Positions 1,390 through 61,338 of a stretch of DNA of 64,000 nucleotides are shown piece by piece (the first letter of the stretch is position 1; each line of letters opens with the position of its first letter). The stretch lies in NCBI GenBank assembly GCA_015068705.1, contig SVJZ01000003.1:1-64000 (forward strand), given 5' to 3'. Source of the stretch: Oscillospiraceae bacterium (GTDB lineage: Bacteria > Bacillota > Clostridia > UMGS1810). The position numbers and the translations under genes were made by a program. The notes under the pieces were generated by a model that was not told the DNA's origin, searched no databases, and worked only from the letters and a program-made list of their open reading frames with translations.

Positions 1390-1469
1390 CGGGCTGTCGG
1401 GGACGCCAGCCCCTACAACTACACGAACAATATTTTTTGTAGGGGTCGGCTATAGGCATCGGCCCCTAC
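1390..1469. repeat. Two REP-like units (1390-1416 and 1439-1469)
   Basis: The unit at 1390-1416 is a class A element on the minus strand: it ends in CCCCTAC and its stem is GGGCTG/CAGCCC. The unit at 1439-1469 is longer (31 bp), starts with GTAGGGG and ends with CCCCTAC, and its inner stem is imperfect. Confidence 0.75.
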
Positions 1470-1495
1470 AATTTACGTATCATCACCGTTTTCCC

Positions 1496-1550
1496 GTAGG
1501 GAAGCACCTATGTGTGCTTCCGTCGGAACGACACGCAGGTCGTTCCCTAC
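1496..1550. repeat. BIME-like pair of 27-bp REP units, class B
   Basis: A plus-strand unit (1496-1522, starts GTAGGG, stem GGAAGCAC/GTGCTTCC) is followed after 1 nt by a minus-strand unit (1524-1550, ends CCCTAC, stem GGAACGAC/GTCGTTCC). The two stems differ at paired positions, so pairing is conserved while sequence is not. The GTAG feet lie at the two outer ends. Confidence 0.8.
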
Positions 1551-1573
1551 GAAAAACCATTGCATATGAATTT

Positions 1574-1628
1574 GTAAGGAACAGCCTATGCGCGCTCCCG
1601 TCGGAACGACACGCAGGTCGTTCCCTAC
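1574..1628. repeat. BIME-like pair, left unit degenerate
   Basis: The right unit (1602-1628) is identical in stem and loop to 1524-1550. The left unit (1574-1600) starts GTAAGG instead of GTAGGG and its stem is broken. It is a second copy of the pair at 1496-1550, spaced 78 bp from it. Confidence 0.7.
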
Positions 1629-1647
1629 AATGTTTGTACAAATATCA

Positions 1648-1680
1648 AAAAAGAGAGCAGAATTTCTGCTCTCTTTTTTC
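1648..1680 (-). terminator. Terminator of the dnaA-gyrA operon
   Basis: A perfect AGAGAGCAGAA/TTCTGCTCTCT hairpin flanked by A and T runs ends directly at the gyrA stop codon. It is symmetrical and could work on both strands. Confidence 0.8.
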
Positions 1681-4173
1681 TTATTCTTCTGTATTTTCTG
1701 CCGGTGTTTCCTGCTCTGCAGGCTCAGCATCATCCTCTTCTTCCTTGGCACAACGCTCGATGGAGGTTACTGCAATGCCGTCTTCCAACCGCATTACCCT
1801 TACGCCTTGAGTTACTCTGCCGTATTCACTGATTTCGGATGCATCGGTACGGATAATGACACCGTCCGAGGTGATCATCATGATATCATCCTCCGGCTCT
1901 ACCACCTTCATACCTGCCACCGGACCGGTTTTATCGGTCAAGCGGTAACCGGTTACACCCTTTCCGCCACGATACTGGAGTTTAAATTCATCCAGCGGTG
2001 TTCTCTTGCCGTAACCAAATTCGGTAACGGTAAGCAGGCTCGCACCCTCGCGACAGATTTCTGCACCAATCACATAGTCATCCTTACCCACACGGATGGC
2101 GGTAACACCCGTTGCACCACGTCCCATGGGACGAACATCTCGTTCTGCAAACTTGATGCACATACCCTGCTTGGTGCCCAGAATGATATCATTTTCGCCG
2201 TCGGTGAGTTTTACCTCAATGAGTTCGTCCTCTTCACGAAGACCGATTGCAATGAGTCCGCCCTTGCGTGCGGTGTTGTATTCCATCAGTCCCGTCTTTT
2301 TCACAAAGCCCTGCTTGGTAACCATGGTAAGATATTGCCCGTCGGCAAACTCGCGCACCGGAATCATAGCGGTAATCTTTTCGTCCGGCTCGATGGGGAG
2401 CAGATTTACAATCGCCGTTCCCTTTGCCTGACGCCCTGCCTCGGGAATCTGATAGGCTTTTAATTTATACATTCTGCCCTTATTGGTAAAGAAGAGCAGA
2501 TGTGCATGAGTGGATGCAATAAAGAGGGTTTCCACTACGTCTTCCTCACGGGTGGAAAGACCCGAAACGCCTCTGCCACCACGATGCTGCGCATGGTAAG
2601 TATTGACCGGCAGACGTTTCACATACCCGAAGTGGGTCATGGTAACCACATTATCCTCTTCTTCAATCAAATCCTCAATATCAATCTCATCGGTGGAAAT
2701 GCAAATCTCGGTGCGGCGATCATCACCATATTTATCGGCAATGACTTTTAGCTCGTCCTTGATGATATCGCACACCAGTTTTTCATTGACCAGCACTTCT
2801 TTTAAGTATGCAATGGTTTTGGAAAGTTCTTCCAGTTCATTTTCAATCTTTTCTCTTTCCAATCCCTGCAAACGTGCAAGACGCATATCCAAAATTGCCT
2901 GTGCCTGCACATCCGAAAAACCAAACCGGGTGATGAGGTTTTCTTTTGCATCATTATAACTATTGCGGATGATGGAAATGATTTCATCAATGTGGTCGAG
3001 TGCTTTTTTGAGCCCTTCCAATAAATGCGCACGCGCCTCTGCCTTACGCAGGTCAAATTTTGTGCGGCGGATGATGATATCCTTTTGGAATTCGATGTAA
3101 TGATCCAGAATCTGACGTAAGTTAAGCACTTTGGGCTGATTGTCCACCAGTGCCAGCATGATCACGCCAAATGCCTCCTGCATCTGGGAATATTTATAAA
3201 GCTGATTGAGAATAATATTGGCATTGGCGTCACGGCGCACCTCGATAACCACGCGGATACCGTCGCGGTCGGATTCGTCGCCGATATAGGTGATGCCGTC
3301 AATGCGTTTTTCCTTAACCAGTTCGGCAATTCGTTCAATCATACGCGCCTTGTTTACCTGATAGGGCAGCTCGGTAACCACGATACGCTGTTTTCCGCCG
3401 TCCATCTCCTCAATTTCTGCCCGTGCACGCATGATAATTCTGCCGCGACCGGTGGTGTAGGCATCATAGATACCTTTTTTGCCCATAATGAGTCCACTGG
3501 TGGGGAAGTCGGGACCTTTGATGTGCTCGATGAGCTCCTCAATGGTAATTTCGGGGTCATCAATGATGGCAACAATGCCGTCCACCAGCTCACGCAGGTT
3601 GTGGGGCGGAATGTTGGTTGCCATACCAACTGCGATACCCGACGAGCCGTTTGCCAGAAGTGCCGGGAAACGGGTGGGAAGTACCACAGGCTCTTTTCTG
3701 TTTTCGTCAAAGTTGGGCTGGAAATCTACCGTTTCTTTTTCAATATCTTCCAGCATGGCGGTACCGATTTTACTCATTCTCGCCTCGGTATAACGATAAG
3801 CAGCGGCAGGGTCGCCGTCTACCGAACCAAAGTTACCATGACCGTCTACCAGAGGATAACGCAGCGAAAAATCCTGTGCCATACGCACCAGTGCATCATA
3901 AACAGATGCGTCACCATGCGGATGGTACCGACCGAGCACGTCACCGACGGTGGTCGCACACTTTCTGTGCGGTTTGTCGGGGGTGAATCCATCCTCATTC
4001 ATGGTATATAAAATTCTGCGGTGAACGGGTTTCAAACCGTCACGCACATCGGGCAGTGCACGCCCTGCGATAACACTCATTGAGTATGCGATGTAGGACT
4101 TTTTCATTTCCTTACTAATCTCAACGGGTAGTATTTTTTGTCCTTCAAAAATGGACTGATCCAGTTGATCCAT
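1681..4173 (-). CDS. gyrA: DNA gyrase subunit A
   Basis: DNA gyrase A (about 830 aa) carries the breakage-reunion domain and the C-terminal beta-pinwheel that wraps DNA. With GyrB it introduces negative supercoils using ATP. Visible features are the winged-helix motif with HPHGD, the catalytic Tyr in [11 protein letters not shown] (about residue 128), and pinwheel repeats with RGGRG and RGGKG in place of a canonical GyrA box. At the position equivalent to E. coli Ser83 there is Ala (HGDASVYD), a residue associated with lower intrinsic quinolone sensitivity in other species. I chose the ATG at 4173 over the upstream GTG because AAAGGA lies 11 nt before it. It is the last gene of the dnaA operon and follows gyrB by 34 nt. 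Confidence 0.97.
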
Positions 4174-4207
4174 TATGGTCACATTCCTTTCTTTTAGGAA
4201 TTATTTT

Positions 4208-6386
<2,179 letters not shown>

Positions 6387-6401
6387 ATCCCTTGCCCCCT
6401 T

Positions 6402-7472
6402 TTACTGTATAATCCTGCCGTTTTCAATTTTGAAATAAGCTGCATCGTTGGATATGCGTTCGGGTTCGGTGCAGGTAAGAAATACCTGCTTATCACTGAT
6501 ATTGCCCAAGAGATAGGCACGCCTTCCCTCATCCAGCTCGCTCAAAATATCGTCCAGCAACAAAACGGGATATTCTCCCATAAATTCTTTTATCACTTCG
6601 CACTCGGCAAGTTTTGTTGCAATCACGCAGGTTCGTACCTGCCCTTGCGAGCCGAATCTGCGAAGACTTTTACCAGAAAGGCATGGTTCAAAATCATCCC
6701 GATGCGGACCCACCAAGGTCATACCATGCTCCAGCTCGCGCTCGAAATTTCTTTCCAACTGAGCAATATAAGCATCGATATCGTGATAATCACCCTTTAC
6801 CCCAGGCATGTAGGAAAATGAAAGTGTTTCCTTGCCGCCGGTAATTTCTCCGGTAAAATGTGCGGCATATTTTTCTATCTCACGGATTGCCTTTTCCCGG
6901 TAATCACAGATGGCACTGCCGTATTGCGCAAGGGTTTCATTCCACACCGAAATGCTGTCTTTCACCGATGGTGCACGGGTTTTCAGCAGGTGATTGCGCT
7001 GATGTAATATGCGGTAATAGCTCATCAGGGTTTTAAAATATACCGGTTTGATCTGGCTTAAAAATCCGTCTAAAAATTGTCTGCGCACACCCGGACCGTC
7101 CTTGATGAGTGAAAGGTGATCAGGGGTAAACACCACCACATTGAAAAAACCGACCAGTTCACTCAATCTGGATATGGGTACCCCGTTTAAGGATGCACTT
7201 TTTTTATCGGCAATGATAATCTCACCGGTATGCTCCATCCCACGGGAAGAAAAACGGATGTTTAAGGTTGCTCTCTCTTCTCCAAAGCGGATTGCCTCGC
7301 AATCCCTTACTGTGCGGTAGGATTTTCCATTGGAGAAAAGGGAGATTGCCTCAACCAGATTGGTTTTTCCCTGCCCGTTTGCGCCATGTAAAATATTAAA
7401 AGACGGATGCGGTTTTAAAAAAACCTTGTCATAATTGCGGAAATGCTCCGCCCTTAATTCTATGATTCGCAT
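6402..7472 (-). CDS. recF: DNA replication and repair protein RecF
   Basis: RecF (356 aa) is an SMC-like ABC ATPase that helps load RecA on gapped DNA with RecO and RecR. The Walker A motif GANGQGKTN lies near residue 31, the signature is FGSQGQ and the Walker B is VLLLDDILSELD near residue 300. The N-terminal RAEHFRNYDK is typical. It overlaps the end of yaaA by 13 nt, and its start lies within that gene, which indicates translational coupling. Confidence 0.97.
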   Translation of the reverse strand: MRIIELRAEHFRNYDKVFLKPHPSFNILHGANGQGKTNLVEAISLFSNGKSYRTVRDCEAIRFGEERATLNIRFSSRGMEHTGEIIIADKKSASLNGVPISRLSELVGFFNVVVFTPDHLSLIKDGPGVRRQFLDGFLSQIKPVYFKTLMSYYRILHQRNHLLKTRAPSVKDSISVWNETLAQYGSAICDYREKAIREIEKYAAHFTGEITGGKETLSFSYMPGVKGDYHDIDAYIAQLERNFERELEHGMTLVGPHRDDFEPCLSGKSLRRFGSQGQVRTCVIATKLAECEVIKEFMGEYPVLLLDDILSELDEGRRAYLLGNISDKQVFLTCTEPERISNDAAYFKIENGRIIQ

Positions 7473-7684
7473 ACTTGAAGTCGGATGTGGTCATCCTCAT
7501 AATCCACCGCAACTTCGTCACCCGGATAGAGCTTTCTGCCACGGCGGGTTTCTAACTTCCCATTTACCTTGATAAATCCGCCGGTTGCGAGAAATTTTGC
7601 ATCGGTTCCAACCTCAACCACGCCTGCAAATTTCAAAAACTGGTCTAATTTGATAAATGGGGTGGAAATGATAATCTGTTCCAT
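7460..7684 (-). CDS. yaaA: S4-domain RNA-binding protein YaaA
   Basis: A 74-residue single-domain S4 protein found between dnaN and recF in most Firmicutes, probably an RNA-binding factor linked to ribosome assembly. The S4 fold is shown by IKLDQFLKFAGVVEVG, FIKVNGKLETRRGRKL and the PGDEVAV end. The upstream GTG is possible, but AGGAG lies 5 nt before the ATG at 7684, so I use that start. Confidence 0.92.
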   Translation of the reverse strand: MEQIIISTPFIKLDQFLKFAGVVEVGTDAKFLATGGFIKVNGKLETRRGRKLYPGDEVAVDYEDDHIRLQVCES

Positions 7685-7692
7685 AAGCACTC

Positions 7693-8802
7693 CTAATTTT
7701 TCAGTCGGATGGGCAGCACCATATAAAGGAATGCGTTACCCTCGACCGGTTTTATGACACACGGCGACAGGGAAGAATTAAATTCCAAAATTGCCGTGGG
7801 AACTTCCACTGCATGCAGTGCATCCAAAAGCAGCTTGGATGCAAGACCAATGCGAAGATTGGCTCCTTCCATCCCTACCTCAACCGCATCGTTAAAATCG
7901 CCGCGTTTGGTCTGGCAACTGACCAAAATGGAAGAATCGGCAATATTTAAAATGATGGGGATGTCGGGATTATCATAGCTTACCATCACTGCTGCACGCT
8001 CGATGGATTCGGTTACTTTTTTCACATCCACCGTAAGCGTTGTCTGACGGTCTACCGGAATGATTTTTTTATAATCGATAAATTCACCCTCCAGCAAACG
8101 GGTGATGATGGTGTAGTGATCATAGCGGAACATCACATTATTTTCTTCAATCACAATATCGATGATGGTTTCATCATCCTTTAAAATTTTCAAAAGCTCC
8201 GAAAGCACTTTGCCGGGAACTACAAATTCCATGCCGTCACCCTTGATTTCGGGAATAACCTGGCGACGGATGGCAAGGCGGTATCCGTCTACCGAAATAA
8301 CCGTAAGGGTGCTTCCCTCCACCTCAAATTTGGAGCCGGTCAAGATGGGTTTATTTTCATTGGTGGAAATGGCAAACAAGGTGTCTTTGATGATGGATTT
8401 CAAATCACGGGAGTAAAGCTTTAATTCCCGTCCACCTTCTATCTTGTTCATTTTGGGGTAACCTTCTGCAGAAAGTGCCAGGAGAGTAAATTTTACCTTC
8501 TTTTCCCGGATGGTAACCACGCCGGTATCGTCCGAGGAAAATTCAATCTTTCCGTCCGGCATTCTTTTTACAATGTCCGAAAAAATACGGGCATCCAGTA
8601 CTAAAGATCCGGTTTCTTTGACATCGGCATCAAAGGTGCTTTCGATGAAAAGCTCCAAATCACTTCCGGTTAAGCGGATGGTGTTTTCGGTAGCATCAAT
8701 TTTTACGCCTTTTAATATTTCCACCGCACTTGCGGGGTTTGCCGCTTTTGCCACAATGGAAAGGCTTTGGGCAAGTACATCCTTTTCGCAGGTAAATTTC
8801 AT
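7693..8802 (-). CDS. dnaN: DNA polymerase III beta sliding clamp
   Basis: The processivity clamp of the replicase (369 aa), a ring-forming dimer of three repeated domains per subunit. The start MKFTCEKDVLAQ, the central DAVEVG stretch and the end YMVLPIRL are characteristic, the last being the hydrophobic-cleft tail that binds polymerase and other clients. The ribosome site AGGAGG lies 6 nt before ATG. It lies downstream of dnaA across the origin region (8803-9023). Confidence 0.97.
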   Translation of the reverse strand: MKFTCEKDVLAQSLSIVAKAANPASAVEILKGVKIDATENTIRLTGSDLELFIESTFDADVKETGSLVLDARIFSDIVKRMPDGKIEFSSDDTGVVTIREKKVKFTLLALSAEGYPKMNKIEGGRELKLYSRDLKSIIKDTLFAISTNENKPILTGSKFEVEGSTLTVISVDGYRLAIRRQVIPEIKGDGMEFVVPGKVLSELLKILKDDETIIDIVIEENNVMFRYDHYTIITRLLEGEFIDYKKIIPVDRQTTLTVDVKKVTESIERAAVMVSYDNPDIPIILNIADSSILVSCQTKRGDFNDAVEVGMEGANLRIGLASKLLLDALHAVEVPTAILEFNSSLSPCVIKPVEGNAFLYMVLPIRLKN

Positions 8803-9023
8803 GGCGTCCTCCTAAATAAATAGAATAATTAAATAATAAATTTTAGTAGTAGTAGCAGTAGGGGAATGGATAATGTGGATATCCGTCCAAAACCGCTTGA
8901 CATATGTAATAGAGCATACTTTATTATGGTGGATAACAAAGTTTTTATTTTTTATGGATTGTGAATAAAATAGTATCCACATTTTTAAAAACAAGTTATC
9001 CACGTTGATGGTGTGGATAGAAA
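8803..9023. other. oriC: Replication origin (oriC) candidate in the dnaA-dnaN gap
   Basis: This 221-bp gap holds six consecutive trinucleotides matching the DnaA-trio pattern (TAG TAG TAG TAG CAG TAG, 8844-8861), followed by a G run (8861-8864) and near-consensus DnaA boxes at 8865-8873 and 8874-8882. An AT-rich tract lies on the dnaN side (8815-8843). This order matches the basal unwinding site described in B. subtilis. More near-consensus boxes occur at 8929-8935, 8974-8981, 8996-9004 and 9011-9019. A perfect box lies on the other side of dnaA at 10409-10417, so the origin may be bipartite. Confidence 0.75.
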
Positions 9024-10352
9024 TTACTGTTGCTTGATATTCTTGATGATATCGTCAATTGCTGCGTGGATATTTGCATCTTTTTTATAATCGTCTTCAA
9101 TTTTTCGAATGCCGTGCATGATGGTGGTGTGATCCTTTTTTCCAAAAATCTGTGCTGTTTTGGTTAAGGGTAAATCAAGCAGTGTCTGGATGATATACAT
9201 GGCAATCTGTCTGGGATAGGAAATATCGCGTGTTTTCTTGGAAGATTTTAAATCGTTTTCCCGCAAAGAAAAATGATTTTCCACTGCCGAAATAATCATT
9301 TCGGGGGTGATTTTTTTCTTATTAGTTATATTAAAATCTTTCAGTGCTTCCTCTGCCAGCGACATATTGATATCTTTTTGCATGAGCCGGTGATAGGAAA
9401 TGATTTTTTTGATGGCTCCTTCCAGTTCACGGATGTTGGATGTGATTTTGGATGCCACATAACGCAATATTTCATCATCAATTTCAATATTTAACTGGGT
9501 TGCCTTTTTCTTGATGATGGCAACTCTGGTTTCAAAATCGGGTGGATTGATATCGGCAATGATGCCGGATGCCAGACGGGTGCGAAGTCTCTCTTCCAGC
9601 GTAACCAGCTCTTTTGGCGGACGGTCGGATGTGATGATGATTTGTTTGTTTGCCTGATGCAGGGTATTAAAGGTGTGGAAAAATTCTTCCTGCGTACCCT
9701 CTTTACCGCCGATAAACTGGATATCGTCAATCATCAGAAGGTCGATTGCACGGTATTTTTCACGAAATTCTTCTGTGCGGTCATCCTTGATGGAATTGAT
9801 GAGGTCGATGGTAAATTTTTCACTCGACACATACATAATTTTTTTGTGCGGTGCCTTTTGTAATACCATATTTCCAACCGCGTGCATGAGGTGAGTTTTT
9901 CCAAGTCCCACACCGCCGTAGAGGAAAAGAGGGTTGTACATATTATTAACACCCTCGGACACTGCAAGACATGCCGCATGTGCAAACTGGTTTGATTTGC
10001 CGATAACGAAAGAAGAAAAGGTATAATCGGGATTTAAATCATTTCTGCGTACCGGTTCAGGCTCACTGAATACGGCGGCCGGAGCAGGAACCGGTGCGGC
10101 GGATTCGCCTCTTACCCGGATGGAAATGTAATAATCCTGATTGGTCTGTAAAAAGACGGCATTTTTAATCAAATCAATATAACGGGTCTGGATGATGTTT
10201 TTGCTAAAATCGTAAGGTACCTCTAATGTGATTTCATTTTCCGAAATATCCACAGGAATGATGGGTTCTATCCACGTAGAAAAACCCACCTCTGAAATTT
10301 CCGGCTTGATAATTTCCAAGGTTTTCAGCCATAAATTCGTAAGATGTTCCAT
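9024..10352 (-). CDS. dnaA: Chromosomal replication initiator DnaA
   Basis: DnaA (442 aa from the ATG at 10352) opens oriC and recruits the helicase. Domain I starts MEHLTNLWLKTLEIIKPEIS; domain III has Walker A GGVGLGKTHLMHA, Walker B LLMIDDIQFIGG and sensor II; domain IV ends with the DnaA-box-binding helices DISYPRQIAMYI and KDHTTIMHGIRKI. The longer reading frame adds 14 residues upstream, but GGGGGAT lies just before the ATG at 10352, so the extension is rejected. The gene is read from a good promoter at 10451-10479, and a perfect DnaA box at 10409-10417 in its leader suggests autoregulation. Confidence 0.98.
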   Translation of the reverse strand: MEHLTNLWLKTLEIIKPEISEVGFSTWIEPIIPVDISENEITLEVPYDFSKNIIQTRYIDLIKNAVFLQTNQDYYISIRVRGESAAPVPAPAAVFSEPEPVRRNDLNPDYTFSSFVIGKSNQFAHAACLAVSEGVNNMYNPLFLYGGVGLGKTHLMHAVGNMVLQKAPHKKIMYVSSEKFTIDLINSIKDDRTEEFREKYRAIDLLMIDDIQFIGGKEGTQEEFFHTFNTLHQANKQIIITSDRPPKELVTLEERLRTRLASGIIADINPPDFETRVAIIKKKATQLNIEIDDEILRYVASKITSNIRELEGAIKKIISYHRLMQKDINMSLAEEALKDFNITNKKKITPEMIISAVENHFSLRENDLKSSKKTRDISYPRQIAMYIIQTLLDLPLTKTAQIFGKKDHTTIMHGIRKIEDDYKKDANIHAAIDDIIKNIKQQ

Positions 10353-10408
10353 AATAATCCCCCATGTAAAAAATCCTTCCACAAACCCTTCCACATGTGT
10401 GGACGGAA

Positions 10409-14973: not shown

Positions 14974-15046
14974 CGGGACGCCCGGAGGTCGTCCCCTACC
15001 AAATCGAAAGAATATAATTGTAGGGGCTGGCGTCCCCGACAGCCCG
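14974..15046. repeat. Two class A REP-like units facing each other
   Basis: A minus-strand unit (14974-14999, stem GGGACG/CGTCCC, ends CCCCTAC) and a plus-strand unit (15020-15046, starts GTAGGGG, stem GGGCTG/CAGCCC) lie 20 bp apart, with their GTAG feet facing inward. They occupy the gap upstream of the glycosyltransferase gene. Confidence 0.8.
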
Positions 15047-38683: not shown

Positions 38684-39026
38684 GGCAAATTGCACGTTTG
38701 CTCCGCTCGTTTCAGGTGGTCGCGCAAACGGAACACTCAGTTCCGTTGCGCTAAAAACGCCGCTATGTTGTATAAGGGAAATAATCGCGGCGTTTTTCCC
38801 ACCAAACGTGCGTCGCTCACGGCAATTTTTATGCCAATTCGCGCGAATGCAAAAGGTTAAAACCAGAAAGGGAAAGCGAACCGGTAGCCGAGAGAACAAT
38901 CCCTCAGGCACTTCGTGCCAGCTCCCTTTACACAAGGGAGCCTTTTTTACACCGCACTCTACATCAGCGTTTTTGCCCCGTGGCGCAGCCGTGGGGTTTT
39001 GCCGCCGTGTGAAACGTGGCGGTGTG
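38684..39026. repeat. Long dispersed repeat, copy 2
   Basis: Aligns with 1-342 from end to end in the same orientation, with scattered changes. It probably extends further left than 38684 but the counterpart is outside the window. Confidence 0.75.
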
Positions 39027-39035: not shown

Positions 39036-39093
39036 GTAGGGAATGACCTATGTGTCATTCCGGGAGCGGAACGGCACGCAGGCCGTTCCCTAC
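39036..39093. repeat. BIME-like pair of class B REP units
   Basis: Plus-strand unit 39036-39062 (GTAGGG, stem GGAATGAC/GTCATTCC) and minus-strand unit 39067-39093 (stem GGAACGGC/GCCGTTCC, ends CCCTAC), 4 nt apart. The stems differ from those at 1496-1550 at paired positions. Confidence 0.8.
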
Positions 39094-39118: not shown

Positions 39119-39188
39119 GTAGGGGCTGGCGTCCCCGACAGCCCGAATGTGGTTTTGCAATCGGGTCGATGAGGGCATCGCCCCTTAC
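39119..39188. repeat. Class A and class C REP units
   Basis: A plus-strand class A unit (39119-39145, GTAGGGG, stem GGGCTG/CAGCCC) is followed by a minus-strand class C unit (39162-39188, near-palindrome around GATGAGGGCATC, ends CCCCTTAC, a slight deviation from CCCCTAC). Confidence 0.75.
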
Positions 39189-51945: not shown

Positions 51946-52014
51946 GTAGGGGCGGATGCCTATGTTCGCTCGCAAGGAATGATGTTACGGGTCGATGCGG
52001 GCATCGACCCCTAC
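51946..52014. repeat. REP pair in the yycH-yycI gap
   Basis: A plus-strand unit at 51946-51972 (GTAGGGG, imperfect stem) and a minus-strand class C unit at 51988-52014 (stem GGGTCGATG/CATCGACCC, ends CCCCTAC). The feet are at the outer ends. Confidence 0.75.
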
Positions 52015-52828: not shown

Positions 52829-52852
52829 GTTACAACATAGGAGGGTTTTGAC

Positions 52853-54181
52853 ATGAAGAAAAAATGGATGGTTGCCCTTGTGGCGCTGATGTGCAGTGTG
52901 GTTGTTTCGCTTACGGCATGGGCAACCGCGCCGGAAGATGTTGTGGTAAGCCTGCAGATTGACAATCCATGGATGCAGGTAAATGGCGAAACAGAGGAGA
53001 TTGACCCGGGCAGAGGAACCAGTCCGCTTGTGACCGACGGGCGTACTCTGGTGCCCATTCGTGCGATTATTGAAGCGTTTGGCGGTACGGTGGGCTGGGA
53101 CGGAGATACCCAAACCGTTTCTCTTGCCATGGAGGGTGACATTGTTACCCTGGTGATAGACAGTCACACTGCGTATCGCAACAAGGACGCACATACGTTG
53201 GATGTTGCCCCTGCGGTGATGAACGACCGCACCATGCTCCCCATTCGTTTTGTGGCGGAGAGTTTTGACCTTGGTGTGGCGTGGGACGGCGGCACCAATA
53301 CGGTGTGGGTACTCCGCAACGGTATGGATGCGGAGGAATATGACTACCTGATGCGCGAGGTGCCTGCATATAGCGGTGCGGCGTGGGTCGAGATGAACGG
53401 AAATGTGCCCATGTTTGACCCCTATGAAGTGATACCGGCGTCCTTTGAATATTACAGTGCGCAGGATGGGATGGGTCGGTGTGATGTGTGCATGGCATCG
53501 GTTGCAGAAGATATCATGCCCACCGGCGAACGGGAGAGCATCAGCTCGGTTACCCCTACCGGTTGGATCAATGCAAAGTATGATGTGGTGGCAGGAGGCT
53601 ATCTTTACAATCGTTGCCATTTAATCGGATACCAGCTTACCGGCGAAAATGCCAATCCGCGCAATCTCATTACCGGAACAAGGCATCTTAACATCGAGGG
53701 AATGTTACCCTTTGAAAATCAAGTGGACGATTATATCGAACGAACAGGAAACCATGTGATGTATCGGGTGACGCCGCTTTTTATCGGCAACAATCAGGTG
53801 GCAAACGGTGTGCTGATGGAGGGGTATTCGGTGGAGGATAACGGACGCGGTGTATCTTTTTGTGTGTATTGCTACAACGTGCAACCGGGGATTGCCATTG
53901 ATTATACCACCGGAGCGAGCAGCTTGGAAGGTGTGACAGAGCAGACCGATTGGAGCGACAATCAGGAAGGCGCATATGGTGATTGGCAAGGCGGCACCGC
54001 TCAGACCGATTGGTATGATGATGCAGGAAATGAGCCGGATGTGCAATCGAGTGGAATATACCGCACTCCCACCGGAAAGAGATATCACCTTGACCCGGAT
54101 TGCGGCGGAAAGAACAGTTATCCGGTTACCCTGGACGAGGCACTGGGTGCGGGACTTACTCCTTGTAAAAAGTGTGCGTGA
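52853..54181 (+). CDS. Secreted stalk-domain nuclease
   Basis: A 442-residue secreted protein in three parts. After a signal peptide, a copper amine oxidase N-terminal-like stalk domain is present (two VPIRAIIEAFGGTVGWD and LPIRFVAESFDLGVAWD repeats). Then a DNA/RNA non-specific endonuclease domain (about residues 195-345) with YNRCHLIGYQLTGENANPRN and LITGTRHLN. Last, a C-terminal Cys-rich module with YHLDPDCG...CKKCA resembling an Ada-type zinc domain found on other secreted nucleases. It probably degrades external nucleic acid at the cell surface. Confidence 0.85.
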   Translation: MKKKWMVALVALMCSVVVSLTAWATAPEDVVVSLQIDNPWMQVNGETEEIDPGRGTSPLVTDGRTLVPIRAIIEAFGGTVGWDGDTQTVSLAMEGDIVTLVIDSHTAYRNKDAHTLDVAPAVMNDRTMLPIRFVAESFDLGVAWDGGTNTVWVLRNGMDAEEYDYLMREVPAYSGAAWVEMNGNVPMFDPYEVIPASFEYYSAQDGMGRCDVCMASVAEDIMPTGERESISSVTPTGWINAKYDVVAGGYLYNRCHLIGYQLTGENANPRNLITGTRHLNIEGMLPFENQVDDYIERTGNHVMYRVTPLFIGNNQVANGVLMEGYSVEDNGRGVSFCVYCYNVQPGIAIDYTTGASSLEGVTEQTDWSDNQEGAYGDWQGGTAQTDWYDDAGNEPDVQSSGIYRTPTGKRYHLDPDCGGKNSYPVTLDEALGAGLTPCKKCA

Positions 54182-54206
54182 GTAAGCGAAGGTTAAATGG
54201 TATTTT

Positions 54207-54253
54207 GTAGGGGGCGGCTTGTATTTCGGGCTGTCGAGGACGCCAGCCCCTAC
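54207..54253. repeat. REP pair, left half degenerate
   Basis: The minus-strand class A unit at 54227-54253 has stem GGGCTG/CAGCCC and ends CCCCTAC. The left arm starts GTAGGGG at 54207 but its hairpin is lost. Confidence 0.7.
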
Positions 54254-54374
54254 ATTTTTAGATGAAATCGGTATTTGCATGCGGGAAATCCGCTTGACGG
54301 AAGAAGAATTTTGCGGTAAAATAAACGAGATAATATGGTTTATAATATGAAATGAAAATATGGAGGGAAATAAT

Positions 54375-54716
54375 ATGGGCAGACCGAGAATGCCGATGGG
54401 CGGCATGGGAAACATGAACAGCATGATCAAGCAGGCACAGAAAATGCAGCAGGATATGCTGAAAATGCAGGAAGAAATGGAGCAAACCGATTTTGAGGCG
54501 AGTGCAGGCGGCGGCATGGTGAGTGTGACCGTGACCGGCAAAAAGGAAATCAAGGCAATTTCCATCAATCCCGAGGCGGTTGACCCGGACGATGTGGAGA
54601 TGCTCCAAGATCTTATCCTGGTGGCGGTGAACGACGCACTCAAAAAAGTGGATGATGCCAACGCGCAAAAAATGGGGGCGCTCACGGGCGGATTGAACAT
54701 CCCCGGAATGTTTTAA
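54375..54716 (+). CDS. Nucleoid-associated protein YbaB/EbfC
   Basis: A 113-residue YbaB protein. The N-terminus [25 protein letters not shown] and the core [23 protein letters not shown] are diagnostic. It binds DNA as a dimer and is normally next to dnaX and recR, but both are absent here. GGAGGG lies 7 nt before the ATG at 54375. Confidence 0.93.
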
Positions 54717-54724
54717 ATTTAATA

Positions 54725-54797
54725 AAAAATCCCTGCGGAACGGGTCGTTTTCGCAGGGATTTTTGCGTGTGCGGCACTTTGGTGCCGGACACGCAAA
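54725..54797 (+). terminator. Double terminator after ybaB
   Basis: AAATCCCTGCG/CGCAGGGATTT with T5 (54725-54765), overlapped by a second hairpin GCGTGT-G-CGGCAC/GTGCCG-G-ACACGC (54764-54794). Confidence 0.75.
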
Positions 54798-54839
54798 AAA
54801 ATGGAAAATGCGCATCGACACAACTTGACATAATCCTTT

Positions 54840-55100
54840 ATGAAACCTGCCCCATGGGGTGAGTTTCATCCACATTTCCACAGGTTTATCCACAAAATTG
54901 CTCCCATTCCATGGGTGTTCCACGGATTTATCCACATTTTTTACACAAAAAAGTGACTTTTCCACAGAAGTTATCCACACCAATATTCCTTTTATTTCCA
55001 GTAATTAAATGGTAAAAATTACATTTTTTATGTAAAAAATGAAGGAAATTTTTCAAAAAAAATGAAAAAAATTTGAAAAAACACTTGACAAGTCACGGGG
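54840..55100. other. Cluster of perfect DnaA boxes next to an AT-rich tract
   Basis: Three perfect TTATCCACA boxes in the same orientation (54886-54894, 54928-54936, 54971-54979) with several near-matches between them, followed by a strongly AT-rich stretch (about 54985-55085). No gene is present in the 546-bp gap between ybaB and ctsR. It could be a DnaA titration or regulatory site; with dnaA 44 kb away it is not the classical origin. Confidence 0.65.
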
Positions 55101-55176
55101 GTGGCTTGGCACCTTGCTTTGCGCCCAAACACAAAAATTTTTTTGTGTGGAAATAAAAATTTTTTGAAAAAAAGAC

Positions 55177-55239
55177 TTGACAAAAACAGTGGTTCGGTAG
55201 TATAATGCACTCGAAAGGTCAAAGAAAGTCAAAGTCAAA
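55177..55239 (+). promoter_or_regulatory. ctsR promoter and CtsR operator
   Basis: TTGACA (55177-55182) and TATAAT (55201-55206) are 18 bp apart. Just downstream, GGTCAAA-gaa-AGTCAAA (55217-55233) with a third partial GTCAAAT matches the heptad direct repeat bound by CtsR, so the operon is autoregulated. Confidence 0.85.
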
Positions 55240-55262
55240 TTTTGACGAATGGAGGTGTGGGC

Positions 55263-55712
55263 GTGAAAATCAGTGACAGTATTGAAATGTTTATTCGGCA
55301 GATGTTGGATGCCGAAAGCAGTGTGGAATTGAAACGCAACGAACTGGCATCCTATTTCAACTGTGTTCCGTCCCAGATCAATTATGTAATTTCCACCCGT
55401 TTTACCACCGAACGGGGCTACACGGTGGAGAGCCGGCGTGGGGGCGGTGGATACATCAAGATTAGCCGTGTTCCGTCGGGCGGAAATGTTGCCCTGATGC
55501 ATATTGTCAATGCAATTGGTGATAATTTAGACAGTCTGACTGCCGAGGCGATTGTGCGAAACCTTTATCACAACGGCGACCTCTCGGCACGCGAGGTGAA
55601 AATTATTTTGGCGGCGTGCTCGGATAATACCCTTGGGAGAGTGGCAGATGGTGTCGCAAGGAACCGATTGCGTGCGGATATGTTTAAGACCATATTGGTG
55701 AATCTGGTATGA
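55263..55712 (+). CDS. ctsR: Heat-shock repressor CtsR
   Basis: A 149-residue winged-helix repressor of clp genes. The N-terminus KISDSIEMFIRQML, the DNA-contact segment FNCVPSQINYVISTRFT, the RGGGGYIKI wing (with the Gly-rich loop that senses heat) and the C-terminal dimer region are present. The GTG at 55263 has GGAGGTG 7 nt upstream. Its last 67 bp are duplicated just downstream. Confidence 0.96.
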   Translation: MKISDSIEMFIRQMLDAESSVELKRNELASYFNCVPSQINYVISTRFTTERGYTVESRRGGGGYIKISRVPSGGNVALMHIVNAIGDNLDSLTAEAIVRNLYHNGDLSAREVKIILAACSDNTLGRVADGVARNRLRADMFKTILVNLV

Positions 55713-55816
55713 TATTTATGTGATGTTTTTAAAAAAACATCACGGGAGAGGCAGATGGTGTCGCAAGGAACCGATTGCGTGCGGATATGTTTAAGACCAT
55801 ATTGGTGAATTTGGTG
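55643..55816 (+). repeat. Duplicated 3' end of ctsR
   Basis: The segment 55643-55709 recurs at 55750-55816 with only a few changes (offset 107 bp). Between the copies lies an A/T hairpin TGATGTTTTT/AAAAACATCA (55721-55742). The second copy runs to a TAG stop that is the start of a REP unit (55816). Confidence 0.8.
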
Positions 55817-55842
55817 TAGGGGCTGGCGTTCCCGACAGCCCG
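55816..55842 (+). repeat. REP unit, class A
   Basis: Starts GTAGGGG, stem GGGCTG/CAGCCC, loop gcgttcccga. It lies directly at the end of the second copy of the ctsR tail. Confidence 0.75.
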
Positions 55843-55866
55843 ATTATGGAAAGGGAGGTTTTACTT

Positions 55867-56382
55867 ATGTTGTGTACTCATTGTGGACAAAAAGAGGCAA
55901 CGCTACATTATCAACAAAATAAAAACGGGCACAAGAGCGAAATGCATCTGTGTGCCGATTGTGCAAAAGAGATGGGGCTGCTTGGCAGTGATATGCTCTT
56001 TTCGGGCGGATTTAATTTCAACGGCCTGCTCAATCAGTTGCTTGGCACACCGGTAACCGCTGCGCCGTCGGCAGGTGCGGTGTGTGACAAGTGCGGTGAA
56101 CGGATTGACGAGTTTCGTTCCACCGGATTTTTGGGATGCGACCGGTGTTATGACGTGTTTGCCGATGCGGTGGAATCCATGCTTACCCGGATTCAACCCG
56201 ACACCACCCACCGTGGCAGGGTTTCGGGAGAAGAGGGAGAGAAATTCCGTCGTACAAACCGGCTCAAAGAATTGAAAGAGCAACTGCAAAAGGCAATTTT
56301 GGAGGAAAAGTACGAGCAGGCGGCGCAGCTTCGTGACCAGATCCGCGCAATACAAAATGAGGGAGGGGAAGTAGATGGCTAA
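55867..56382 (+). CDS. mcsA: McsA, activator of the arginine kinase
   Basis: A 171-residue protein with two pairs of zinc-binding CxxC motifs (CTHCGQ and CADCAK near the N-terminus; CDKCGE and GCDRCYD around residue 75-100) and a C-terminal UVR motif (LKELKEQLQKAILEEKYEQAAQLRDQI). It binds and activates McsB and modulates CtsR. The ATG at 55867 has GGGAGG 8 nt upstream. It overlaps mcsB by 8 nt. Confidence 0.94.
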   Translation: MLCTHCGQKEATLHYQQNKNGHKSEMHLCADCAKEMGLLGSDMLFSGGFNFNGLLNQLLGTPVTAAPSAGAVCDKCGERIDEFRSTGFLGCDRCYDVFADAVESMLTRIQPDTTHRGRVSGEEGEKFRRTNRLKELKEQLQKAILEEKYEQAAQLRDQIRAIQNEGGEVDG

Positions 56383-57385
56383 ATGGTATCATGACCAAGG
56401 CGCCCAGAGTGATATTGTGCTTTCCACCCGTGTGCGGCTGGCACGAAACATCAAGGGGATTCCCTTTCCGTCCCGTATGAAGGGTGAGGACGGCGAGAAG
56501 GTAATTTGTCTGGTGAAGGATGCACTGGACGCACTGCATTACAACTTTTCCCTTATCCGGTTAAGTGAGTGTCCCGATTTGGAAAAGCAACGGCTGTTGG
56601 AGGCGCATTTTATCAGCCCCGATATGCTGCGCGACACCGAGCACAAGGCGGTGTTTTTAAGCGAGGACGGGTATGTGTCCATCTTAATCAATGAGGAGGA
56701 CCACATCCGGTTGCAGGGGATTTTTTCGGGAATGGAAAGCGAGAAGGCATATGACCTGATTGCCAAAATTGACGATTGCCTTGCAGAACGGCTGAACTAT
56801 GCAGTACATGAAAAATACGGATACCTTACCGCCTGCCCCTCCAATGCAGGAACCGGAATGCGGCTTTCGTTTATGTTGCACCTGCCGGCATTGTGCATGG
56901 CGCAGCTTACCGAAAAGCTCTTTGCAACCATTGGCAAACTGGGTGTTACGGTGAGAGGGTTGTATGGCGAGGGCACCAAGGCGAGCGGATATGTGTTTCA
57001 GATATCCAACCAGTTTACTCTGGGGCGCAGTGAGCAGGAGCTGATGGCGAGCATCACCGAGGTGGTGGGGCAAATCATTTCCAAGGAGAGGGAACTTCGC
57101 ACAAAACTTCTGCGTGAAAACGGAGTTGCGCTGGAGGACAAAATTATGCGCGCATACGGGCAGATGAAGTACGCCCGGGTGATGAGCACCAAGGAGTTTA
57201 ACGGGTTGCTTTCGTTTGTGAGGCTGGGTGTGTCGGCAGGGCTGATTGATTCGCTTACCATACGGGAGGTAAATACATTGATGGTGGAGGCGCGCCCTGC
57301 GCATGTGATGGGTGATGCGCCGCTGACCGAAATGGAGCGGGATGTGAAGCGCGCGGACATCATCCGCAGGGCATTGGAAAAGTAA
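56375..57385 (+). CDS. mcsB: Protein arginine kinase McsB
   Basis: A 336-residue phosphagen-kinase-like enzyme that phosphorylates arginine on proteins and marks them for ClpC. Signature segments are STRVRLARNIKGIPFPS, the ATP/guanidino site NEEDHIRLQ and the loop CPSNAGTGMRLSF. The last 12 residues (57353-57385) are part of a tandem repeat. Confidence 0.95.
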   Translation: MAKWYHDQGAQSDIVLSTRVRLARNIKGIPFPSRMKGEDGEKVICLVKDALDALHYNFSLIRLSECPDLEKQRLLEAHFISPDMLRDTEHKAVFLSEDGYVSILINEEDHIRLQGIFSGMESEKAYDLIAKIDDCLAERLNYAVHEKYGYLTACPSNAGTGMRLSFMLHLPALCMAQLTEKLFATIGKLGVTVRGLYGEGTKASGYVFQISNQFTLGRSEQELMASITEVVGQIISKERELRTKLLRENGVALEDKIMRAYGQMKYARVMSTKEFNGLLSFVRLGVSAGLIDSLTIREVNTLMVEARPAHVMGDAPLTEMERDVKRADIIRRALEK

Positions 57386-57571
57386 GATTTTATTATATTT
57401 TTACAAAATATAATGGATGGGAATAAAACGTGCGGACATCATCCGCAAGGCGTTGGAAAAGTAAGATTTTATTATATTTTTACAAAATATAATGGATGGG
57501 AATAAAACGCGCGGACATCATCCGCAGGGCGTTGGAAAAGTAATTTTTATTATATTTTTACAAAATATAAT
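57353..57571 (+). repeat. 79-bp tandem repeat at the mcsB 3' end
   Basis: Units start at 57353, 57432 and 57511 (period exactly 79 bp, about 2.8 copies). Each contains the last codons of mcsB with the stop, then a hairpin ATTATATTTT/AAAATATAAT. Only the first unit is in frame with mcsB. The third is followed 11 bp later by a REP unit. Confidence 0.85.
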
Positions 57572-57581
57572 GTGAGAGATT

Positions 57582-57608
57582 GTAGGGGCCGGCGTCCTCG
57601 ACGGCCCG
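57582..57608 (+). repeat. REP unit, class A variant
   Basis: Starts GTAGGGG, stem GGGCCG/CGGCCC, loop gcgtcctcga. It lies 11 bp after the mcsB tandem repeat and 79 bp before the clpC start. Confidence 0.75.
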
Positions 57609-57687
57609 AAAAAACAGAATAAACTCATGCATTTTTGTAAAATTTTAATTGTCGCGAGGAACCGAAAAAATAAAGGAGGAACAGACC

Positions 57688-60099
57688 ATGGAGAGCAGAT
57701 TTTCCGAGCAGGCGCGCCGTGCATTACAACTGGCGCAGGAAACGGCAAAAGAGATGGGCTATGGCTTTGTGGGAAGCGAGCACATTCTGGCGGGTATCAT
57801 CCGCGAGGGCAACTCCAAGGCGGCTCATATATTAGAAGAGATGGGTGCAGACGAGCAGGCGGTTACCCAAAAAATCAAGGAACTGTCCGACCCCGGCACA
57901 CCGGGCGCACAGGGGCAGGTGCTTCCGCTTACCCCACGCACCAAAACGGTGATTGAATTAAGCTACAACGAATCCCGTCGGGCAGGGCAAAGCTATATCA
58001 CGCCCGAGCATTTGCTCATGGCAATATTACGCGAAGGGCAGAGCATGGCAATACGCATATTGCACGAGCTGGGAATAGAGCTGAATCGTCTGGCAGCCGA
58101 GCTTTCGGGCGAGCAGCAGGGTAACGCCAGTGGCGCGCCCAAGGCAAACGGCACCCTCAAAGGGTTGGAGCAATTTGGCACAGACCTTACCGCGCAGGCA
58201 CGGGAGGGGAAATTCGACCCCATCATTGGCAGGGACAAGGAAATAACCAGGGTGATACAGATTTTGTCCCGTCGCACCAAAAACAACCCCTGTCTGATTG
58301 GTGAGCCTGGGGTGGGTAAAACTGCCGTTGCCGAGGGTCTTGCGCAAAAAATTGTGTCGGGGCAGATCCCGGAAATTTTAAAAGGGAAACGGGTATTTGC
58401 ACTGGATCTGGGCGGCATGATTGCAGGCACAAAATATCGTGGCGAATTTGAAGAGCGCATCAAAAAAGCGCTCGATCAGGTGAAACAGGACGGCAACACC
58501 ATCCTCTTCATCGACGAGGTGCACACACTGGTAGGTGCCGGTGCGGCAGAGGGCGCAATGGATGCGGCAAACATCTTAAAACCCCTGCTCGCGCGCGGAG
58601 AAATTCAGGTAATCGGTGCAACCACACTGGATGAATATCGCAAAAATATCGAAAAGGATGCGGCGTTGGAAAGAAGGTTCCAACCCATCACGGTGGGCGA
58701 GCCGACCGTTTCCGAAACCATCGAGATTTTAAAGGGCATCCGTGACAAATACGAGGCGCACCACAAGGTTACCATTACAGACGAAGCACTGGAGAGTGCG
58801 GCGCGGCTGTCTGCCCGTTACATTACCGAACGGTTCCTGCCCGACAAGGCAATTGACCTGATTGATGAGGCGGCATCCAAAATCCGCCTGACCGCATACA
58901 CCGCGCCCCCCGACATCAAGGAGCTGGAGGGACAGGCGGCAGAGCTTGCCGAGCAAAAGCGTGCGGCGATTGCGGCGGAGGAATTTGAAAAAGCGGCAGG
59001 GCTGCGTGACCGGGAAGAATCCTTGCGCGCTGAGTTGGAGGAGAAGAAGGCAGGTTGGGAAAAGACCAATTCCAAAGAGGCGCTTTCGGTGACCGAAGAG
59101 GATATTTGTGACATCATCACCGACTGGACGGGGATTCCAGTGAAAAAGCTTGCCGACGAGGAGCAGGAAAGACTCCGCAATATGGAGCAGATTTTGCACC
59201 GACGTGTGGTGGGTCAGGACGAGGCGGTGTCGGCGGTGGCAAAGGCAATCCGCCGTGGTCGTACCGGCTTGAAAGACCCCAAACGCCCCACCGGATCGTT
59301 CATTTTCTTGGGTCCTACCGGTGTGGGAAAAACCGAGCTGTGCAAGGCACTTGCCGAAACCATTTTCGGGGACGAAAATGCCATCATCCGTGTGGACATG
59401 AGTGAATATATGGACAAGCACAATGTGTCCCGTTTGGTCGGCTCGCCCCCGGGATTTGTGGGCTATGAGGAGGGCGGTCAACTTACCGAAAAGGTACGGC
59501 GCAAGCCTTATTCGGTGGTGCTGTTTGACGAGATTGAAAAGGCGCATCCGGATGTGTTTAACATTCTCCTGCAGATTTTAGAGGACGGAATTTTAACCGA
59601 TTCTCAGGGGCGCAGGGTGGATTTTAAAAACACGGTAGTGATTATGACCTCCAACATCGGGGCGCGATTGATTACCGAAAAGAGCCGTACGCTGGGCTTT
59701 GGCGGCGGTGAAGATGCAGAGCGTGGATATGAGCAGATCAAAGAGGATGTGTTGGGCGAGCTGAAAAAGGTGTTTCGACCCGAGCTTCTCAACCGTATCG
59801 ACGAGATGATTGTATTCCACAAGCTGAATGAGGAAAACATCGAGCAGATTTCGCGCATCATGCTCTCTTCGCTGAAAGAGCGGATGGCGGCGTTGGGCAT
59901 CGAGGTGAATTTTACCGATGAACTGGTAAAATTCATTGCCAAGGCAGGATATGACCCGGTTTATGGAGCAAGACCCCTTCGCAGGGCGATTCAGTCGAGG
60001 GTGGAGGATTTGCTGTCCGACGAGATGCTTTCGGGGCGCGTGAGTGCAAGTGCACCCGTGACGGTGGACGCAGACGAGAACGGCGTAAAATTAGGATAA
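57688..60099 (+). CDS. clpC: ATP-dependent Clp protease ATPase subunit ClpC
   Basis: An 803-residue Hsp100 unfoldase. The N-domain has two repeats ([20 protein letters not shown] and the second around residue 80), then AAA-1 with Walker [14 protein letters not shown] and Walker [18 protein letters not shown], an M-domain/UVR motif ([18 protein letters not shown]), and AAA-2 with [13 protein letters not shown] and [13 protein letters not shown]. It works with ClpP and McsB. AAGGAGGA lies 7 nt before the ATG at 57688; the frame upstream is not used. Confidence 0.97.
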
Positions 60100-60103
60100 A
60101 AAG

Positions 60104-60136
60104 AAAAAGAGTGCTTTTCGTGAGCACTCTTTTTTG
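60104..60136 (+). terminator. Terminator of the ctsR-clpC operon
   Basis: AAAGAGTGCT/AGCACTCTTT hairpin with a T run. Confidence 0.8.
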
Positions 60137-60139
60137 TAT

Positions 60140-60225
60140 GAGGAAATGTCGGGACGAAAGAGGACGCCGTCCCCTACAGGTTTTGTGCGAATGGGTTGCG
60201 GAACGACACGCAGGTCGTTCCCTAC
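60140..60225 (-). repeat. Two REP units upstream of the RAYT locus
   Basis: Class A variant at 60140-60167 (stem GGGACG/CGTCCC, ends CCCCTAC) and class B unit at 60199-60225 (stem GGAACGAC/GTCGTTCC, ends CCCTAC), both on the minus strand. Confidence 0.8.
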
Positions 60226-60232
60226 GAGGGTA

Positions 60233-60493
60233 TTATGGAGTGACGTGTGAAAGGCAGATCAGTTGATGTGCCTTGTTCAGGGCGGTAACGGCTTGGGTGT
60301 GGAGTAAATCTGCCTTGACCCGTGCCGCGGCAAAATCGTATTGTTCTGTTTCGGAAAGGGAGTTTACATTCAGGCAATCAAAATAATCAACGCACAAATC
60401 CCGTGCATGCACCTCGATTTGTTGCAGAAAATGTTGCAGGGTGTTGGCGGCATCGCAGATGTCGATGAGGGTGGATTGTTTGGAAGTGGGCAT
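60233..60493 (-). CDS. Small hypothetical protein, paralogue of the 640-933 product
   Basis: An 86-residue protein resembling the 640-933 product: STLIDICDAANTLQHFLQQIEV at the N-terminus, a YFD motif after about 15 residues, and YDFAAARVKADLLHTQ further on. Its length is slightly smaller and it has more Cys. AAAGGAG precedes the ATG. It is flanked on both sides by REP units. Family and function unknown. Confidence 0.7.
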   Translation of the reverse strand: MPTSKQSTLIDICDAANTLQHFLQQIEVHARDLCVDYFDCLNVNSLSETEQYDFAAARVKADLLHTQAVTALNKAHQLICLSHVTP

Positions 60494-60528
60494 AAGAATT
60501 CTCCTTTATGATTTATTGTTGTGGTAAG

Positions 60529-60555
60529 CGGAACGGCACGCAGGCCGTTCCCTAC
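60529..60555 (-). repeat. REP unit, class B
   Basis: Stem GGAACGGC/GCCGTTCC with loop acgcag, ends CCCTAC, minus strand. It lies between the small orphan gene and the RAYT operon. Confidence 0.8.
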
Positions 60556-60662
60556 ATATTCATTTTAGAATATTATACCACATAATTTTGTTGATTGCAA
60601 TACATTTGTTATGCATACAATAAAAATATAGTTATATATAATTGTATTGCAGAGGTGATTAT

Positions 60663-60836
60663 ATGAAAAAGTTTAAAATTCCGTCTGTTCCACCTACCAC
60701 AAACAAATGTATACGGTTTCCGAACGATATTATTGATGAGGTAGAAAAGGCGATAGAAGGTGAAAACTGTACCTTTACGGCTTTTGTTGTGGAAGCGGTA
60801 AGAGTGGCATTGGAAAATATTGAAGATGAAAAGTAA
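60663..60836 (+). CDS. Ribbon-helix-helix-like protein overlapping the RAYT gene
   Basis: A 57-residue protein preceded by AGAGGTGA. After a basic Pro-rich start (KKFKIPSVPPTTNK), the sequence CIRFPNDIIDEVEKAIEGENCTFTAFVVEAVRVAL fits a short beta strand and two helices, as in CopG/Arc-type DNA-binding proteins or antitoxins. Its stop lies inside the start of the RAYT gene, so the two are translated together. It may regulate the RAYT gene or act as its partner. Confidence 0.65.
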   Translation: MKKFKIPSVPPTTNKCIRFPNDIIDEVEKAIEGENCTFTAFVVEAVRVALENIEDEK

Positions 60837-61338
60837 ATTACCAAAGCGAAAACCGACCAGGTTAAAAGGGTATGATTATGGGGCACCGGGGGCGTATTTT
60901 GTTACGATATGTGTAAAAGACAGAAAAGAATTGTTGTCACAGATCGTAGGGGACGGCGTCCACGACGTCCCGAAAAATGTATTAACGAGCTATGGTAAAA
61001 TTGCAGAAAAGCAGATCAATCAAATGAATGAATTTTATGATTACATTACGGTTGATAAATATATCGTTATGCCAAACCACATACATTTGCTGTTATCAAT
61101 AACAAATGTGGAGTATAATCCGGGCTGCGGGACGTCGAGGACGCCGTCCCCTACAAGTGCAACTGTAGCAAGCTTTGTATCAACATTCAAGCGATTTTGC
61201 AACAAGGAATACGGGGATAACATTTGGCAGCGTTCCTACCATGATCACATTATCCGTGGCGAAAGGGATTACCAAAAAATATGGGAATACATCGACACCA
61301 ATGCGTTGCGTTGGGAAGAAGATTGTTTTTACGTTTAA
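60826..61338 (+). CDS. REP-associated tyrosine transposase (RAYT)
   Basis: A 170-residue Y1 transposase-like protein. The HUH motif lies in VMPNHIHLLLS, and the candidate catalytic Tyr in WQRSYHDHIIRGERDYQKIW; the N-terminal GYDYGAPGAYFVTICVKDRKE is typical. RAYTs cut single-stranded DNA at hairpins with a GTAG foot and are thought to spread REPs. Two such hairpins lie within this gene: 60946-60972 (plus) and 61128-61154 (minus), each 27 bp, reading VGDGVHDVP and GTSRTPSPT in frame. The start is weak: ATG at 60826 or TTG at 60820. No transposon ends are visible. Confidence 0.9.
   Translation: MKSKLPKRKPTRLKGYDYGAPGAYFVTICVKDRKELLSQIVGDGVHDVPKNVLTSYGKIAEKQINQMNEFYDYITVDKYIVMPNHIHLLLSITNVEYNPGCGTSRTPSPTSATVASFVSTFKRFCNKEYGDNIWQRSYHDHIIRGERDYQKIWEYIDTNALRWEEDCFYV
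60946..60972 (+). repeat. REP unit inside the RAYT gene (plus)
   Basis: Starts GTAGGGG, stem GGGACG/CGTCCC, loop gcgtccacga. Exactly 27 bp, in frame. Confidence 0.85.
61128..61154 (-). repeat. REP unit inside the RAYT gene (minus)
   Basis: Stem GGGACG/CGTCCC, loop tcgaggacgc, ends CCCCTAC. Exactly 27 bp, in frame, opposite in orientation to the unit at 60946. Confidence 0.85.

Follow-up and report, generated by a model that had tools for sequence, protein, structure and literature searches.

In-frame REP hairpins in a RAYT gene family of gut Clostridia match each other within a gene and appear linked in stem class to the middle of the protein

The window analyzed here is a 64,000-nt stretch of an Oscillospiraceae genome, and it probably lies at the replication origin because it contains gyrA (1681–4182) and dnaN (7693–8802). 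GTAGGG occurs at 35 sites within it, compared to 15.4 ± 3.8 in shuffled sequence (maximum 25), and about 20 of these sites (20–22) are hairpin units, mostly of 27 bp. A preliminary description of this DNA reported about 25 such units in three stem classes (A, B, and C); the hairpins, their usual length, and the classes are as described, although the number is nearer 20–22, with some GTAGGG sites lacking a hairpin (7873, 8858, 11876, 20892, 31007, 43542, and 53554, among others). Degenerate units are found at 1439, 51946, and 54207. Class A units with the GGGCTG arm lie at 1390–1416 (minus strand), 15020–15046 (plus), 39119–39145 (plus), 54227–54253 (minus), and 55816–55842 (plus), with a GGGCCG variant at 57582–57608 (plus) and a GGGACG variant with an altered loop at 60151–60177 (minus); the unit at 15020–15046 forms an inverted pair with a 26-bp class A partner at 14974–14999 (minus). 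Class B units lie at 1496–1522 (plus, GGAAGCAC), 1524–1550 and 1602–1628 (both minus, GGAACGAC), and, near the RAYT gene described below, at 60199–60225 and 60529–60555 (both minus), and a class C unit lies at 51988–52014 (minus, GGGTCGATG). Folded as single-stranded DNA (ssDNA), class A units have a stem of 6 bp, then a 1 × 1 mismatch and two inner pairs; the class B stem is a perfect 8 bp, and that of class C is 9 bp.

To place these units in their genome, we counted them by pattern search and read the sequence around each match. The pattern GTAGGGN16–18CCG has 77 matches genome-wide compared to 45 for a reversed-pattern control, and all six foot-proximal pairs are present in 46 of the 77, where about 1.5 would be expected. 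The window holds 17 of 53 paired units in 64 kb of a 1.77-Mb genome; this densest REP region is near both the origin and the RAYT gene, so the two effects are inseparable. Among 27 distinct 27-mers from this genome, 96.3% of stem cells are paired, compared to 78.9% after shuffling, and the covariation score is 0.495 (0.169 shuffled), with none of 500 shuffles as high and no slid register approaching the score of the true one. Changes on both sides of the stem occur at four of six positions; the stem differences are compensatory, as the preliminary description had proposed. Class B is further found as a REPIN: at 39036–39093 in the window and in copies on contigs C1, C6, and C14, a GTAG-unit, a 4-nt spacer, and an inverted unit make up a 58-bp inverted pair. 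The copies have sharp ends, and their flanks at the four places are unrelated. The window units thus show the GTAG foot, palindromic form, dispersal, and inverted pairing of REPs and REPINs, and the 58-bp element, among others, resembles the REPINs of Bertels and Rainey 2011 (PMC3116915), in which two inverted REPs are dispersed as one unit; here the halves have different stems (GGAATGAC and GGAACGGC).

At 60826–61338 (plus strand, ATG at 60826), a 170-aa open reading frame encodes a RAYT/TnpAREP-like HUH-Tyr1 protein with its HUH motif at PNHIH, a catalytic Tyr155, and a WQ motif reading IWQ. The RAYT gene noted earlier at this position is real: it matches NCBIfam REP_Tyr_transpos (E 1.4e-16) and Pfam Y1_Tnp (E 3e-5), and the best PDB match of its AlphaFold2 model (pLDDT 79) is E. 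coli TnpAREP with a REP hairpin (4er8, E 1.4e-7). The NCBIfam score of 60.7 bits misses the curated cut-off of 80, which weakens the RAYT label and leaves the fold-level assignment in place; the threshold is a matter of the database, not of biology. Relatives were identified in public genomes and in 78 related genomes. In 32 proteins compared, H85 and H87 of the HUH motif are invariant, as are Y155 and N159. The Y motif reads YIDTNA in the window protein and YIDTN in most relatives, with the P position of the Y---NP motif occupied by A in the window and by P, V, A, T, Q, or E in relatives. By protein search, this is the sole RAYT found in the 93%-complete assembly; a Pfam Y1_Tnp search of the same genome missed it at the threshold used and detected a separate IS200-type TnpA on contig C2 (62896–63252, E 1.3e-40; L001). 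GTAG-foot hairpins lie beside the gene (the units starting at 60151, 60199, and 60529) and within it. Immediately upstream, a small gene (60663–60836, plus) overlaps the RAYT start, and its 57-aa YlcI/YnfO-like product (NF041551, E 3.7e-11) is probably a small DNA-binding regulator.

The preliminary description placed the hairpin units between genes, which holds for most of them, but two lie in frame inside the RAYT gene. Unit 1 (60946–60972, plus) encodes VGDGVHDVP at the β-hairpin turn before αA and has an ssDNA hairpin energy of −9.0 kcal/mol. Unit 2 (61128–61154, minus) is inverted relative to unit 1, encodes GTSRTPSPT, and has an ssDNA hairpin energy of −9.9 kcal/mol; in the predicted structure its peptide forms a disordered loop between the HUH strand and αC, and both unit peptides fall in surface loops. 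The two units lie on either side of the HUH-coding segment, with unit 2 between the HUH and Y motifs. This arrangement recurs widely: among 52 full-length distinct RAYT genes, including that of the window, 49 carry at least one in-gene unit and 42 carry both, at the same two places, in the same orientations, and mutually inverted. No units are found in L038, L061, or L091, and unit 1 is missing from L032, L062, and L082, with L032 having a unit further downstream in its place.

Stem sequences differ widely between RAYT genes, and the two units of one gene match each other. In 33 genes, they share an average of 13.4 of 14 arm bases, compared to 9.3 for shuffled partners (maximum 11.0 in 10,000); these genes are related rather than independent, but the roughly ten stem classes are approximately independent, and the match within the gene is found in all ten classes with both units. 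Unit 1 is always read as V(G)..., whereas the frame of unit 2 differs between classes, with three in use, indicating that it is the DNA unit and not the peptide that has been preserved. In the window RAYT mRNA, unit 1 is predicted to fold onto unit 2 (−88.6 kcal/mol, z −7.3), the fold behind the autoregulation idea raised below, although any long inverted pair folds by construction. In-frame REPs within RAYT genes were already reported in 2018 (PMC6006769). A literature search on RAYT or REPIN together with Firmicutes found nothing, and in-gene REPs are now extended to gut Clostridia.

To determine which part of the gene goes with stem class, we compared same-class and different-class DNA identity along a codon alignment of 49 RAYT genes, with nearest-neighbor counts on 45. 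The excess of same-class over different-class identity is about zero over the N-terminal 32 codons, rises at unit 1, is high over αA, drops at the invariant HUH strand, reaches its maximum over unit 2 and αC, and is gone after the W/F-Q motif. The nearest neighbor in DNA is of the same class for 44/45 genes in αC and 42/45 in the αA region, and for 17/45 in the N-terminal and 23/45 in the C-terminal segment. On a tree of the middle, built with the unit codons and HUH left out, stem class changes six times, the minimum, compared to 19 times on a tree of the ends, where shuffled labels give a mean of 27.8 changes and a minimum of 21. When each of four classes was constrained to one clade on the ends, two were rejected (class e, AU p 0.016; class d, 0.019), class a was marginal (0.059), and class c was not rejected (0.33). 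Pairs of different class reach 88–93% DNA identity in one end and 48–63% in αC; L014 and L026, for example, have different REPs, with C-terminal DNA 93% identical and αC 62% identical. Because the ends are short (69 codons), support for reassortment comes from a combination of tests of moderate strength and not from any single one, and the weak class signal there could in part reflect the low resolution of short, conserved sequence. In E. coli TnpAREP, GTAG is contacted by β1, around β4, and by the C-terminal tail, and helix α3 contacts the stem and bulge (PMC8266576). By position, between the HUH strand and β4, α3 corresponds to αC. The pattern is what would be expected if the invariant foot were recognized by the constant ends and the changing stem by the variable helix, the step from correlation to contact being an inference.

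Some relatives of the window RAYT lie within larger mobile elements. At least ten are in elements of about 1.6–2.0 kb bounded by terminal inverted repeats (TIRs; GGTGTACTCTAAAGGACAGTAA), and an ungapped scan for this TIR gives 28 matches at four or fewer mismatches compared to 0 for shuffled patterns. From end to end, the elements contain a TIR, a terminator, a minus-strand gene, a small RHH or HTH_3 regulator, the RAYT, a terminator, and a TIR; no other transposase is apparent in them. In most cases the minus-strand cargo is a secreted Cu_amine_oxidN1 protein, variable at one end, and otherwise it is DUF4190/Zn-ribbon; similar RAYTs are accompanied by differing regulators and cargo. TIRs were found at L003, L005, L008, L011, L015, L022, L023, L026, and L032, where the cargo–regulator–RAYT arrangement was noted, and at L030, L034, L036, and L039; G030 holds a 690-bp version. 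A homolog of the 57-aa regulator occupies the same position in L003, within the TIR-bounded element; the window copy keeps this regulator type and has no recognizable TIR, with none near the RAYT within seven mismatches and none in its genome at three. Elsewhere in the window, a DNA/RNA non-specific endonuclease (52853–54181) has the Cu_amine_oxidN1 domain type seen in the TIR cargo. Several truncated copies start exactly at GTAG (L034, L036, L039, and L040), and we considered and rejected these as RAYT cleavage products: REPs also flank the left terminator (L007), so exact GTAG starts are explained by ordinary deletion between two direct REPs. In L043 (4681–4953), a truncated RAYT has lost the interior from unit 1 to unit 2, leaving a double-foot hairpin (GTAGTGTCGATTCACGAATCGCCCCTAC), in agreement with the origin proposed for double-foot REPs in the 2018 report (PMC6006769).

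Comparison with known systems places the window RAYT near, rather than within, a described subclass. It shares NH[IFV]H and WQ motifs and GTAG-foot REPs with TnpAREP subclass 2.4 of Quentin et al. 2018 (Bertels group 4; PMC6006769), whose in-frame REP between the HuH and Y motifs is matched here by unit 2. As given in that paper, subclass 2.4 occurs chiefly in Cyanobacteria and Bacteroidetes and has the Y motif YIxNNP, whereas the proteins studied here have YIDTN followed by P, V, A, or T; with YIDTNA instead of YIxNNP, we file the window RAYT as subclass-2.4-like rather than as a member. The main text of the paper describes no matched inverted pair at two fixed sites, no inheritance of class with αA and αC, and no reassortment of ends, and relative to it the matched pair, the class linkage, and the reassortment appear to be new. 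E. coli TnpAREP/REP (4ER8; Bertels group 2, Quentin subclass 2.2) has the same fold, HUH motif, and single Tyr, and likewise has GTAG-footed hairpins and inverted pairs, but its REPs flank the gene rather than lying inside it, its hairpins are longer and bulged, and the protein has a C-terminal extension that touches GTAG. The TIR-bounded relatives resemble TIRtrons and their TIRYT genes, RAYT-like genes with flanking terminal inverted repeats (Di Nocera et al. 2013; PMC3733652). Many published TIRYT TIRs share GGGGWSAS and replace GTAG REPs, whereas those of the relatives (GGTGTACTCTAAAGGACAGTAA) enclose cargo, regulator, and a RAYT that itself contains GTAG REPs; the window copy has no recognizable flanking TIRs, which define TIRtrons.

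Across the 78 related genomes, such a RAYT is present in 19 (E < 1e-40), and RAYT relatives are nearly absent among viral contigs and plasmids. The preliminary description proposed comparing unit copy number with RAYT presence, and the outcome is largely in its favor: the median log2(units/control) is 0.79 in the 19 RAYT genomes compared to −0.96 in the 59 without (Mann-Whitney p 2.4e-7), with an association inside the family at p 0.034. The link has exceptions: units are also in excess in G028, G046, G066, and G097, which lack an intact RAYT of this kind (RAYT fragments are present in G028 and G046), and some RAYT genomes have no excess. Most of the 29 RAYT matches in G046 (L069 and L095) are fragments, and among them are two RAYTs fused end to end; this genome looks like a graveyard of RAYT copies. 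Among 24 genomes, the agreement between class abundance and RAYT class is suggestive in G023, with 62 copies of its RAYT's class, and in G005, G011, G013, and G017, and is not always concordant; the test is not clean because many genomes hold several RAYTs. In G002, G007, G008, G015, G016, and G020, the tested class is represented, within the mismatch limits, only by the two in-gene copies. Persistence of the pair therefore does not depend on dispersed copies, in keeping with a gene that brings its own seed.

Taken together, the GTAG foot, hairpins, REPIN pairs, and HUH-Tyr enzyme make a RAYT/REP system well supported at the sequence level. The further suggestion that the system is active or recently active is not supported for all three classes: the only RAYT found bears class-A-type units, its in-gene 27-mer has one exact copy elsewhere in the genome, no class B RAYT was found in the assembly, and the probable class B RAYT, with in-gene units of that class, is found only in a relative (L065, from the same-family genome G033). 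A RAYT of the L065 type may explain the class B units here without a class B RAYT of the genome's own.

We propose that RAYT acts as a single-strand HUH-Tyr nuclease that would recognize hairpins with a GTAG foot and is the probable agent of their spread, whether as single units or as inverted pairs (REPINs). At the sequence level, stem class is inherited with the segment running from unit 1 through αA, HUH, and unit 2 to αC, and the N- and C-terminal ends appear common to the classes and reassorted between them; in layout, the gene resembles an exchangeable specificity cassette that is linked to its own substrate and set between constant ends. The ends would bind the constant GTAG foot and carry out the chemistry, with αA and αC binding the variable stem, and the substrate hairpin inside the gene would maintain the match between enzyme and substrate through movement or recombination of the gene, allowing each RAYT to seed a new REP population. 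The least certain step is that the inverted pair might act on its own gene, for example as a protein-binding mRNA or ssDNA hairpin that limits RAYT expression. We consider it probable that these genes form a RAYT/REP system of the in-gene-REP type, with a class-linked middle, reassorted ends, and enzyme and substrate kept matched. Only tentatively do we go further, to RAYTs of gut Clostridia being modular, such that REP specificity changes in a single step upon exchange of a recognition cassette with its own substrate, an exchange possibly promoted by the enzyme at the in-gene hairpins, and such that the enzyme can, through the hairpin pair, sense its own gene and limit it.

Somewhat doubtful, though the most plausible of the alternatives, is that the in-gene units are passive: REPs that landed in permissive loops and stayed because the frame was unbroken, with the class match reflecting spread by the local RAYT. 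Many unrelated genes do carry intragenic in-frame REPs (PMC3733652), the peptides of both units are surface loops, that of unit 2 being disordered in the predicted structure, and Quentin et al. proposed in the 2018 paper that there is little effect on activity (PMC6006769). Passive landing fits less well with the recurrence of the same two sites and orientations across classes and genomes, with the reading of unit 2 in three different frames at one site, with the inheritance of stem class alongside αA and αC, or with the several genomes where no other copies of the class were found from which to land. It is less probable again that the middle is not an exchanged cassette, and that RAYTs diverged by class while their ends merely evolved slowly under strong constraint. 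The ends do include catalytic and GTAG-contact residues, and the ends are compatible with a single class c clade (AU p 0.33), but slow ends leave unexplained the different-class pairs that are nearly identical in one end and far apart in αC, the 19 class changes on the ends tree, and the rejection of classes d and e as clades. That the hairpins are ordinary RNA elements, such as terminators or mRNA-stabilizing structures, multiplied by recombination with the RAYT incidental, seems very improbable: the units are mostly intergenic and some are near gene ends, but the foot is invariant and unpaired, the 58-bp REPIN copies have sharp ends and unrelated flanks, unit excess goes with RAYT presence, and class-matched units lie within the RAYT genes themselves.

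The preferred reading, in which a class-linked middle and its hairpins travel together, bears on what keeps a RAYT and its REP family matched, on how specificity switches, and on why domesticated transposases persist. The physical linkage of enzyme and substrate in one gene is maintained over about ten stem classes, and the findings suggest that a single gene with its own seed can be the founder of a dispersed REP population. Because natural swaps of the recognition segment exist, stem specificity could be mapped by simple segment exchange. Besides the GTAG units, the window has at 38887–38946 a member of another, unrelated dispersed repeat family: about 55–60 bp long (AGAACAATCCCTCAGGCGCTTCGCGCCAGCTCCCTTTACACAAGGGAGCC), it has two hairpins with compensatory variants, and three copies each are found in L112 and L107.
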